Below, piece by piece: positions 23,314-26,784 of a stretch of DNA of 64,000 nt. Where the stretch lies: NCBI GenBank assembly GCA_029879725.1, contig JAOUPR010000005.1, positions 1 through 64,000 of the forward strand, in the 5' to 3' direction. The position numbers and the translations under genes are program-made. Source of the DNA: Gemmatimonadota bacterium (GTDB lineage: Bacteria > Gemmatimonadota > Gemmatimonadetes > Longimicrobiales > Gaopeijiaceae). Every line of letters begins with the position of its first letter. Positions within the stretch are counted from its first letter, which is position 1. The notes under the pieces are model-generated. The model saw only the letters and a program-made list of their open reading frames with translations. It was not told the DNA's origin and did not search any database.

Positions 23314-25053
23314 ATGGTTTCACGGCTCAAGAACATGACGATCCTGGCGCTCGCGGCCCTCGCCTTCGGGCAGGGTGAAGCGTTGAACGCGCAGGAGGGG
23401 GCTCAGGGGCGGTTTCGCGTTCTGATCCCCAACTTCCAGGCGCTCCAGGATGCCGACGACGGTTTCGGGAAGGATGTCGCCAAGGAACTGCGGGAGCTCA
23501 TCAACGCGCTGCCGACGCACCAGCCCGTCGATGAGAAGGAGATCAAGCAGGCGCTGAAGCAGTTCAAGCTGAAGATGGAGGACCTGGATTGCATCCGGAC
23601 CCGCCAGCTTGCGTCCCAGATCAATGCCCAGCTCGCGCTCTGCGCCACGTACACGGAGCCGCAGGACAAGGAGTTCGTTCTCAACGCCGAGTTCTGGGGC
23701 ATCGAGACCGGTGAGTCGTTCCAGGTGGACGAGGTCGCGGTGGCGGACCGGGAAGAGGAGCGTGCGGCTCAGCACATCTTCAGCCAGTTCGACGAGTACA
23801 TCCAGCAGATCCGCTTCGCCGCCTTCTGCGCGGACTACGCGCGCAGCCAGCAGTGGGACAACGCGCTGGAGAACTGCGACAACGCCCTCGAGCTCAACCC
23901 CAACGCAGTCGGGACGCGCTTCCAGCGCGGGCGCATCCTCTTCGATGCCGGGCGCCTCGAGGAGTCGCTGGTGGAGCTGGAGCGGGTGCTCGAGTTGAAC
24001 CCGGTGCACGACGATGGTCTCCAGCTCGCCGGGTACGTGGCCGCCAAGCTCGGCCGGGACGACGAGGCCCGCGCGTACTACGGCCAGTATCTCGAATTGA
24101 ACCCGGGGGACGCCAGCGTCCGCATGAAGATCGCCTACGACCTGGCCACGGCCGGTGACCCCGTCGGCGCCATGCAGTTCATCCAGGTCGGCCTCGACGT
24201 GGACGGCGAGAACACGGCCCTGTGGGAGCAGTACGGGAACTTCGCCTTCACCGCGGCGGCGCAGATCGTCGAAGAGGCCGGTCCGGAGAACGGCGGAGGC
24301 GTGCCGCCCCAGGCCGCCGAGTTCTACCGGGAGGCCATCGGGGCGTACGACCGGGTCTTCGCCCACCCCGAGGGTGAGTTGAAGGTCGGCCAGCTGCGCA
24401 ACTCCATCGCGGCCCACATCCAGCTCGAGGAACTCGACATCGCGGTGGCCAAGGGGGAGGAGTACGTCGCCGCCCATCCCGAAGAGGTGATGCTGCACCT
24501 GATCCTGTCCGACGCGCATCAGCGGCGTGGGGACATCCCCGCCGCGTTGGCGGCGCTGGATCGTGTGCTCGAGATCGATCCCGCGCATCCCACGGCGAAG
24601 CTTCGCAAGGGTCAGGTCCTGATCCAGGCAGGGCGGATAAACGAGGTCGGGCCCCTGTTGAGGGAGGCCGTGGCCGGGGATCCCCAGCAGGCGCTCCAGG
24701 CAGCGCGTCTCATCTTCAACGACGCGTACGCCAACGGATACCAGAAGGACCGCTGGCAGTATGCCATCACCGGCTTCACGGTGGCGAAGCAGCTTCCCGA
24801 CGTTCCCGCCGACATGGTGGCGCAGCTCAACTTCTGGCACGGCTTCAGCCTGTACCGGTTGGCCATGCAGGAGCAGGAGCCGCAGACGCTCCAGACGGCG
24901 CAGACGTCACTGGCCAAGTTCCAGGAGGCCGTGCGCCTCTTCGAGCGGTCCGGTAACTACCCGGCTTCCGTGAACGTGAACGTGGACCAGCTCCTGGGGA
25001 ACGCCAACACGTACATCGAGATCCAGGAAGCGATCATCAAGCGGGGTCGCTGA
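23314..25053 (+). CDS. Secreted tetratricopeptide-repeat protein
   Basis: The 579-aa product has a signal peptide (about residues 1-26), an N-terminal domain of about 140 residues that resembles the beta-rich part of secreted CsgG/TolB-like assembly proteins in style (RFRVLIPNFQALQDADDGFG), and then TPR-type helical repeats from about residue 165 (for example ENCDNALELNPNAVGTRFQR and AALDRVLEIDPAHPTAKLRK). It is acidic and soluble, so probably periplasmic and a scaffold for protein complexes. It has its own promoter and a double hairpin terminator, suggesting an independent, well-expressed gene. Confidence 0.83.
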   Translation: MVSRLKNMTILALAALAFGQGEALNAQEGAQGRFRVLIPNFQALQDADDGFGKDVAKELRELINALPTHQPVDEKEIKQALKQFKLKMEDLDCIRTRQLASQINAQLALCATYTEPQDKEFVLNAEFWGIETGESFQVDEVAVADREEERAAQHIFSQFDEYIQQIRFAAFCADYARSQQWDNALENCDNALELNPNAVGTRFQRGRILFDAGRLEESLVELERVLELNPVHDDGLQLAGYVAAKLGRDDEARAYYGQYLELNPGDASVRMKIAYDLATAGDPVGAMQFIQVGLDVDGENTALWEQYGNFAFTAAAQIVEEAGPENGGGVPPQAAEFYREAIGAYDRVFAHPEGELKVGQLRNSIAAHIQLEELDIAVAKGEEYVAAHPEEVMLHLILSDAHQRRGDIPAALAALDRVLEIDPAHPTAKLRKGQVLIQAGRINEVGPLLREAVAGDPQQALQAARLIFNDAYANGYQKDRWQYAITGFTVAKQLPDVPADMVAQLNFWHGFSLYRLAMQEQEPQTLQTAQTSLAKFQEAVRLFERSGNYPASVNVNVDQLLGNANTYIEIQEAIIKRGR

Positions 25054-25061
25054 CGATTCCA

Positions 25062-25092
25062 CCGGGGAGTCCGCCATGGGCGGACTCCCCGG
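25062..25092 (+). terminator. Hairpin 1 downstream of TPR gene
   Basis: A perfect 14-bp stem (25062-25075 with 25079-25092) closes on the 3-nt loop ATG, starting 9 nt after the TPR gene stop codon. It is the first of two tandem hairpins. Confidence 0.7.
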
Positions 25093-25103
25093 AACGCAGC
25101 ACC

Positions 25104-25139
25104 GAGAGCGCCGCGGGGCCCAGGCCCCGCGGCGCTCTC
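25104..25139 (+). terminator. Hairpin 2 downstream of TPR gene
   Basis: A perfect 17-bp inverted repeat (25104-25120 with 25123-25139) with only 2 nt between the arms, followed by TCGTTGT. It is very GC-rich. With hairpin 1 it should insulate the division operon from upstream transcription. Confidence 0.7.
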
Positions 25140-25334
25140 TCGTTGTATCCCACCCTCCGGGAAGCCTCCCCACTTCGTCCCACCGGTATGCCGGCGCCCT
25201 TCGGGTAGTTTTCGGTATTTCTTCGGAATTGTATCGAGGCGCTCCCCAGGCCGATGCCCATCAGTCGCTTAAATGCTGGACATTCGTGACCACGGGGCGT
25301 TCGGTGCCCTCCCAATAATTCGAAATAATTGCTC
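25140..25334. other. Intergenic stretch ahead of the division operon promoter
   Basis: This part of the 361-nt gap between the TPR gene and mraZ becomes markedly AT-rich toward its right end (for example AATAATTCGAAATAATTG around 25315-25332), unlike the surrounding GC-rich DNA. It could act as an UP-like element or DNA-bending region for the promoter. I see no gene in it. Confidence 0.5.
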
Positions 25335-25364
25335 TTGACGCCGTATGGGATAATGCCGTATTAT
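25335..25364 (+). promoter_or_regulatory. Promoter of the dcw (mraZ) operon
   Basis: TTGACG (25335-25340), an 18-bp spacer and TATTAT (25359-25364) form a good sigma70-like promoter, with transcription predicted from about 25371. An AT-rich tract lies just upstream. It is the only convincing promoter seen ahead of the fourteen coupled division and cell-wall genes. Confidence 0.7.
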
Positions 25365-25367
25365 CTC

Positions 25368-25402
25368 CCCATCGGTACCCACTTCTACCCACCGCTTCCC
25401 AC
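25368..25402 (-). promoter_or_regulatory. MraZ operator candidate: four TGGG boxes at 10-bp pitch
   Basis: CCCA occurs at 25368, 25378, 25388 and 25398, each exactly 10 bp apart; the last three extend to CCCAC. Read on the minus strand these are TGGG boxes. E. coli MraZ binds direct TGGGN repeats separated by 5 nt, the same 10-bp pitch, and represses its own operon. The array covers the predicted transcription start and early leader, just before the mraZ ribosome site (GGGAGGG, 25403-25409). Confidence 0.72.
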
Positions 25403-25414
25403 GGGAGGGCACGG

Positions 25415-25846
25415 GTGAACGGCTTCGTAGGGCAATACGAGTACCAGATGGACGAGAAGGGGCGGGTGAGTCTCCCCTCGGCGTTTCGCCGGGAGGCCGA
25501 CTCCGACCGCTTCGTTCTCCTCCAATGGGAAAAGCCCTACCTGACGCTGTTTCCCGCCGCCAAGTGGGGGGAGATCCAGGAGAGACTCCTGGAATTCCGG
25601 CGGGCCAACGCCGAGGCGTGGAACCGGGTGCGCGTCATCGTGTCCAGCGCCGTCGAGGTCGCGCCGGACAAGCAGGGGCGGATCCTCGTCCCCGCGGGCC
25701 TCCAGTCCGCGGGTGGGCTGGCCGGAACCGTGATCCTGAGCGGGAACATCGACCGCATCGAGATCTGGGACCCGGAGACCTACCGGAGCACGGTGGAGCA
25801 GCAGGCCGCCGGGTTGGAGGACTTCGCACACAGGCTCTTCGGGTGA
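25415..25846 (+). CDS. mraZ: Transcriptional regulator MraZ
   Basis: MraZ (143 aa) is the AbrB-like DNA-binding regulator that heads the division and cell wall operon. The two halves each carry the family motif: DEKGRVSLPSAFR near residue 13 and DKQGRILVPAGLQ near residue 87. The GTG start is supported by GGGAGGG 5 nt upstream. It forms rings that bind repeated TGGG boxes; a four-box array lies directly upstream, so autorepression is expected. Confidence 0.95.
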   Translation: MNGFVGQYEYQMDEKGRVSLPSAFRREADSDRFVLLQWEKPYLTLFPAAKWGEIQERLLEFRRANAEAWNRVRVIVSSAVEVAPDKQGRILVPAGLQSAGGLAGTVILSGNIDRIEIWDPETYRSTVEQQAAGLEDFAHRLFG

Positions 25847-25851
25847 CGGCC

Positions 25852-26784
25852 ATGGACGCGATCCGCTATCACGAGCCCGTCATGGTGGGCGAGGTGCTCG
25901 GCTTCCTGTCTCCGGCCGGAGAGGGGTTCTACCTGGACGGGACCGCCGGGGGAGGGGGGCACACCCGGGCCATCCTGGACGCCTGCCCCGGGTGCCGCGT
26001 CCTGGCCGTGGATCGTGACCCCGAGGCGCTGGACGAGTGCCGCACGGCGCTGGCCGCGCACCGCGACCGCGTCCGCTTCCTCCGCCGCCGGTTCGACAAG
26101 GCGGTGGACGACCCGGAGGTGCGGACACGGGGACTGGAGGGCGCGCTCCTGGATCTGGGCGTGAGCTCGCACCAGCTCGACGATGAGCGCCGGGGGTTCG
26201 CCTTCCGCCGCGGAGTCGTCCTCGACATGCGTATGGGGGGAGAGGACGAGGGAGCGTCGGCCGCGGAATTCCTCCGCGAGGCCCCGGAAGAAGATCTCAC
26301 CCGGGCCTTCCGGGAGTGGGGAGAGGAGCCTCGCGGACGGCGGTTGGCCCGGGAGGTCGTGCGCCGCCGTGAGGACCGCTCCTTCGACGACGCCGACGAC
26401 CTGGTGGGAGCCCTCGCCGCCGTGCTGGGGCGCGCCCCCACGGCGCAGGAGAAGGCCCGTGTGTTCCAGGGTGTCCGCATCGCCGTGAACCGTGAGATGG
26501 AGGCTCTGGAGCTCGCGCTGCCGGCCATCCGGGACGCGTTGAACGAGGGCGGCGTTCTGGTGGTGATCGCGTACCACTCCCTGGAAGACCGCATCGTGAA
26601 GCACGCTTTCCGGGAGTGGAGTCTCAGCTGTGTGTGTGCTCCGGGGATGCCGGTCTGCACGTGCCGCGGGCGCCCCCTGGGAGAGACCCTCACCAGGAAG
26701 CCGGTCCGTCCTTCGGACGACGAGGTTTCGGCGAACCCCCGTGCTCGAAGCGCGCGCCTGAGGGCGTGGAGGAGGGCGGCATGA
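25852..26784 (+). CDS. rsmH: 16S rRNA (cytosine(1402)-N4)-methyltransferase
   Basis: RsmH (310 aa) methylates N4 of C1402 in 16S rRNA using SAM. Family signatures: YHEPVMVGEVL at the N-terminus, SAM motif DGTAGGGGHTRAIL, DLGVSSHQLD, AYHSLEDRIVKHAFREW, and the C-terminal KPVRPSDDEVSANPRARSAR. The ATG at 25852 is chosen because GGGTGA lies 5 nt upstream; a GTG at 25843 overlapping the mraZ stop would add three residues. Confidence 0.95.
   Translation: MDAIRYHEPVMVGEVLGFLSPAGEGFYLDGTAGGGGHTRAILDACPGCRVLAVDRDPEALDECRTALAAHRDRVRFLRRRFDKAVDDPEVRTRGLEGALLDLGVSSHQLDDERRGFAFRRGVVLDMRMGGEDEGASAAEFLREAPEEDLTRAFREWGEEPRGRRLAREVVRRREDRSFDDADDLVGALAAVLGRAPTAQEKARVFQGVRIAVNREMEALELALPAIRDALNEGGVLVVIAYHSLEDRIVKHAFREWSLSCVCAPGMPVCTCRGRPLGETLTRKPVRPSDDEVSANPRARSARLRAWRRAA

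Follow-up and report, generated by a model that had tools for sequence, protein, structure and literature searches.

The MraZ operator of the dcw operon in Escherichia coli is reportedly the one described by Eraso et al. 2014. In the E. coli K-12 sequence (NC_000913.3), we found three perfect GTGGG boxes on the sense strand, which agrees with the three repeats that the first-pass annotation had ascribed to this species. For Burkholderia cenocepacia, the available excerpt of PMC7761207 describes a repeated GTG motif in which four 7-nt repeats with 3-nt spacers overlap the transcription start, in DNA that is bound by MraZ in a gel shift; the array of the related B. stagnalis is sense. For Mollicutes, excerpts of PMC5282649 and PMC8475190 cite Fisunov et al. 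2016 for an MraZ site of the form AAAGTGKN3 x3, and the excerpt of PMC8475190 states that M. genitalium has a single such site in its genome, at mraZ. Our literature search turned up no paper that describes an antisense MraZ operator, which is a weak negative.

Here, we have analysed a window (the whole stretch of DNA under study, 64,000 nucleotides) of a Gemmatimonadota genome in which the repeats ahead of mraZ are turned the other way. On the plus strand, CCCA occurs at 25368-25371, 25378-25381, 25388-25391 and 25398-25401, so the minus strand reads TGGG four times with an exact 10-bp period. As minus-strand 5-mers, the boxes are ATGGG (25368..25372, CCCAT on the plus strand) and three copies of GTGGG (25378..25382, 25388..25392 and 25398..25402), each assigned from its sequence and its 10-bp register with the others. 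The array is located between a sigma-70-type promoter and the probable ribosome-binding site of mraZ, GGGAGGG (25403..25409, plus strand), which ends 5 bases ahead of the GTG start codon. The -35 element TTGACG (25335..25340, plus strand) and the -10 element TATTAT (25359..25364, plus strand) are separated by an 18-bp spacer; with 10 matches out of 12, they form the sole sigma-70-type promoter found in 25050-25600. Box 1 starts 4 bp past the -10 element, which places the array at the mraZ promoter. From the TTGACG-18-TATTAT arrangement, we infer that transcription of mraZ starts at about 25371, within box 1.

The array thus has what we take to define an MraZ operator, namely at least three direct repeats with a TGGG/GTG core, a 10-bp period and a location at the mraZ promoter. 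It departs from the usual state, in which repeats and mraZ are on one strand, although a common strand is not a stated requirement. Both the E. coli operator and the window array are made up of TGGG/GTGGG direct repeats with a 10-bp period just 3' of the promoter, but E. coli has three perfect boxes in the sense orientation and the window has four in the antisense orientation. The four repeats and, with the predicted start of the window, the overlap with the transcription start are shared with the B. cenocepacia site, as far as the excerpt of PMC7761207 describes it. The Mollicute site, as given in the excerpts, resembles that of the window in its GTG core, its 10-bp unit and, for M. genitalium, its being the single genomic site at mraZ, but differs in having three units, other flanks and, in the leader of M. 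hyorhinis, the sense strand.

The four exactly spaced minus-strand repeats and their orientation opposite to mraZ, both pointed out in the first-pass annotation, were confirmed. When the 300 nt ahead of mraZ were shuffled 2000 times with their dinucleotide composition kept, no shuffle contained four exact TGGG spaced by 10 bp (0/2000), and a single one contained three on either strand (1/2000). In the whole 3.94-Mb genome, the window array is the best four-box match, with one mismatch to GTGGx4; one other site with one mismatch is found on C74. The number of four-box matches genome-wide is at chance level (21 vs 26 for a reversed control pattern), as is that of exact CCCAx3 (3 vs 5 for the control). 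A wider MraZ regulon in this genome was considered and rejected, since the remaining matches are at chance level. We also considered whether the array could be sense for another gene. No divergent or antisense promoter was found in 25050-25600, and the upstream gene, encoding a TPR protein (23314-25053), has the same direction as mraZ.

By its Pfam match, the gene behind the array is mraZ. It encodes a protein of 143 residues (25415..25846, plus strand) and is the first gene of the dcw cluster, ahead of rsmH (mraW; 25852..26784, plus strand), whose product scores 270.5 bits against NCBIfam TIGR00006 (cut-off 154.3). The MraZ protein matches Pfam PF02381 in two stretches with 85.8 bits (gathering cut-off 23). 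Against the equivalog model TIGR00242 of NCBIfam it scores 88.1 bits, under the cut-off of 98.35; this cut-off is strict for the phylum, as it is reached in no more than 8 of the 149 genomes of the class. The DxKGR and DxxGR motifs, which by alignment contain R15 and R86 of E. coli, are both present, and D13, K15, G16, R17, D85 and R89 are invariant across 13 aligned MraZ proteins. Each solved structure that was matched by sequence is an MraZ entry (1n0e-g, 9qlg, 9qlr, 9r4j, 9sx6 and 9sz7), and the named relatives are Gemmatimonadota metagenome-assembled genomes, some of them labelled Longimicrobiales or Gemmatimonadales. With E. coli MraZ as the query, no MraZ was found in viral contigs; a phage collection contains 13 records with MraZ-like matches.

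The orientation of the array was surveyed across the phylum. Both strands of each mraZ leader were given a simple score for a trio of GTGGG boxes spaced by 10 bp, and an orientation was called when at least 12 of 15 positions matched with a margin of 2. Leaders were left out when the protein start was truncated, when they were shorter than 60 nt or when their last 60 nt were identical. In the family of the window (f1), 110 of 116 genomes have an mraZ match, and the leader was read for 96 of 113 mraZ matches. The boxes are antisense to mraZ in 84 of these 96 leaders, sense in 9 and without a call in 3. By genus, 34 of 38 are antisense, three (g20, g30 and g33) are sense, one has no call, and none is mixed. 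Outside this family, sense arrays were called in f2 (4, with 1 no call), f3 (13), f4 (12), f5 (3) and f9 (7), and in f11, which belongs to the same phylum but lies outside the class (3, with 3 no calls). Some f3 loci entered the survey through their box pattern, which biases them toward the presence of an array but not toward either orientation. Altogether, 27 of the 31 genera in the other groups of the phylum are sense and none is antisense, the rest having no call. E. coli K-12 was called sense in the same survey, and seven further named records gave one antisense and six sense arrays. The unusual part is the orientation: the array is antisense in the window and in most of its family, but sense in E. 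coli and wherever a call was obtained in the other groups of the phylum. The boxes are kept in nearly all mraZ leaders read, so they are conserved alongside mraZ, a point on which the first-pass annotation had made its reading depend. Some of this conservation simply reflects common descent.

Several loci of the survey deserve separate mention. Two of the three f1 leaders without a call, L004 and L060, resemble weakened antisense arrays when inspected by eye. The third, L017 (G008, genus g9), lacks a clear box array and sits on a very long branch, and the first motif of its MraZ is changed, with DGAGR replacing DxKGR; the protein and its operator seem to have drifted together. DxKGR is present in the MraZ of every leader with an orientation call. 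In G037, mraZ is present twice, as L052 and L058, on separate contigs; each copy has an antisense array, and the pair could reflect two genomes in one bin. In two genome groups of the same class, f6 and f7, no mraZ was detectable among the listed members, which have near-complete genomes, apart from one weak, broken match in f7 (G177). One f6 genome without detectable mraZ (G132; for example L241) contains 15 exact CCCACx3 matches, mostly within a CCCACCTTGC/CCCACCCTGC unit. We rejected these as MraZ operators and regard them as a dispersed short repeat.

On a tree of MraZ (138 rows), the orientation requires two changes, and the same number is required on a tree of MraZ and RsmH combined (123 rows). 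This pattern would be explained most simply by a flip at the base of f1 followed by a return in the g33 clade, which on the MraZ tree also includes g20 and g30. Forcing all antisense rows into one clade costs 24 log units with an AU p of 0.047 on a quick tree; as this value is borderline, one flip and two flips are both compatible with the data. The sense clade within f1 consists of L084 and L101-L108. Their array is placed differently: in several of these leaders, one box lies upstream in the promoter spacer and its neighbour overlaps the -10 element, with the start of mraZ a short way downstream. The site looks as though it was rebuilt once the flip had taken place.

A three-box score of at least 13 at period 10 was reached by 72 of 85 antisense leaders and 50 of 57 sense leaders; at each of the periods 6-9 and 11-14, it was reached by at most 1 of 85 and at most 3 of 57, respectively. 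On the opposite strand of the antisense leaders, none of the 85 reached this score at period 10. When the promoter was placed without reference to the array, the phase of the box centres, counted from the end of the -10 element, had a mean of 5.0 and a resultant of 0.83 in antisense arrays (n=72), and a mean of 2.0 and a resultant of 0.69 in sense arrays outside f1 (n=38). The lock to the promoter is thus as tight for inverted arrays as for the usual ones, at an offset of a few bp, and is partly due to common descent. If the MraZ ring stays on the same DNA face in both kinds of array, the 3-bp shift would put its contact centre on the 3' side of the middle of GTGGG, at a distance of about 1.5 bp, a position that comes from phase arithmetic and not from a structure. 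At the cut-offs used, no alignment columns separate the MraZ proteins behind antisense leaders from those behind sense leaders.

Taken together, these observations argue that the four boxes form an MraZ autoregulatory operator that was turned in place and at which MraZ rings would occlude the promoter of the dcw operon. We give this reading, with its predicted binding and repression, a probability of roughly 0.85. MraZ rings would bind the boxes, which recur once per helical turn along a single face of the DNA and extend from the edge of the -10 element across the beginning of the leader. A bound ring would occlude RNA polymerase at the dcw-operon promoter, and MraZ would thereby limit the expression of mraZ and of the genes that follow. 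As the f1 array reads against the direction of mraZ, the ring would be docked the other way round from that in E. coli, over the same promoter segment. That both orientations survive at the same promoter position suggests that repression is indifferent to polarity. Binding and repression at this array are inferred by analogy from the protein family and the published cases. It is very probable that the site is an operator for MraZ covering the start of the operon that mraZ heads, as the first-pass annotation had proposed, with that start placed by the promoter elements.

Other explanations for the repeats have to be weighed against this reading. That they are kept as a leader G-quadruplex (G3N7 x4) and not for MraZ binding seems very improbable to us. 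The minus strand of the window does provide four GGG runs with 7-base loops, an excerpt of PMC11796246 proposes a G-quadruplex in the Staphylococcus aureus mraZ promoter, and the canonical pattern fits 11 of 13 arrays in f3 and 9 of 12 in f4. However, this pattern is present on the array strand in just 10 of the 84 antisense arrays, so that four runs of three or more G are not conserved, and 92 of 252 boxes are without GGG, the most frequent replacement being GTGGT (54). Loss of GGG with retention of the 10-bp register and of GTGG is the pattern of a box recognized by protein. It is very improbable that the boxes act as RNA, with a C-rich leader pairing with the Shine-Dalgarno sequence and controlling translation. 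The exact 10-bp period and the phase lock to the -10 element are features of DNA, and the leader folds no better than its shuffles (z -0.81, 41/200 as good), even though CUUCCC stands beside GGGAGGG and is used in the predicted fold.

It is also quite improbable that a different regulator of TGGG repeats uses the antisense array, leaving MraZ in f1 with some other operator or with none. The sense orientation in 17 of 23 named comparators would be in line with such a substitution, but sister groups have sense arrays with the same box, period and place, antisense leaders have no array on their other strand, and the genome of the window has no second good array of this kind. A further question is whether a fourth box does something special and makes autorepression stronger than it is with three, as the first-pass annotation had suggested from the four boxes of the window and the three of E. 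coli. Among the 84 antisense f1 leaders, the number of boxes is two in 3, three in 27, four in 36 and five in 18, with four or five boxes together being the most frequent state. Because relatives carry two to five boxes and four repeats have already been published for B. cenocepacia (excerpt of PMC7761207), the fourth box is ordinary, and a special role for it is improbable. The best reading remains an ordinary MraZ autorepression operator, which appears to have been inverted in place once or twice in family f1.

Inverted arrays are also found outside the phylum. Besides E. coli, the 23 named comparators are records of a plasmid collection, many of them chromosome-sized (19 chosen from 36, plus three). 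In this small and uneven sample, sense GTG arrays were seen in 17: E. coli, Proteus, Aeromonas, Legionella (weak and irregular), Burkholderia, Neisseria, Listeria, Bacillus, Subdoligranulum, Paenibacillus, Nonomuraea, Tsukamurella, Phocaeicola, Microbacterium, Monoglobus, Bacteroides and M. hyorhinis (short). No array was seen in the mraZ leader of Sphingomonas. Antisense arrays were seen in five, namely Shinella, Rhizobium leguminosarum, Sinorhizobium meliloti, Sinorhizobium sp. K101 and Tistrella, with four exact TGGG in each of the first four and 15 of 16 matches in Tistrella. Like the window, these alphaproteobacterial leaders (L284, L287, L289 and L292 of Rhizobiaceae; L291 of Tistrella) have four antisense TGGG with a 10-bp period. 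Unlike that of the window, their arrays are located about 200-230 nt upstream of mraZ and consist of ATGGG/TTGGG boxes, and those of Rhizobiaceae lie over an apparent TTGACG -35 element. They look like a separate, independent instance of an inverted MraZ operator in Alphaproteobacteria.

On balance, we lean towards a broader account in which a polar direct-repeat operator at a core cell-division promoter was turned in place with its repressor unchanged. In Gemmatimonadota, the turn would date to the base of one family, with a probable reversal in one sub-clade (g20, g30 and g33), and a further, independent turn would have occurred in Alphaproteobacteria. The flip would have come with a phase shift of about 3 bp, and repression by MraZ would then be independent of the direction in which the ring docks. 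For operator finders, the finding is a warning that searching a single strand is inadequate. MraZ heads a highly conserved cell-division operon, and structures of the protein exist. A family with a backward operator beside relatives with a forward one is a natural experiment, which predicts that repression by MraZ would be indifferent to polarity and constrains where the contact centre of the ring may lie.
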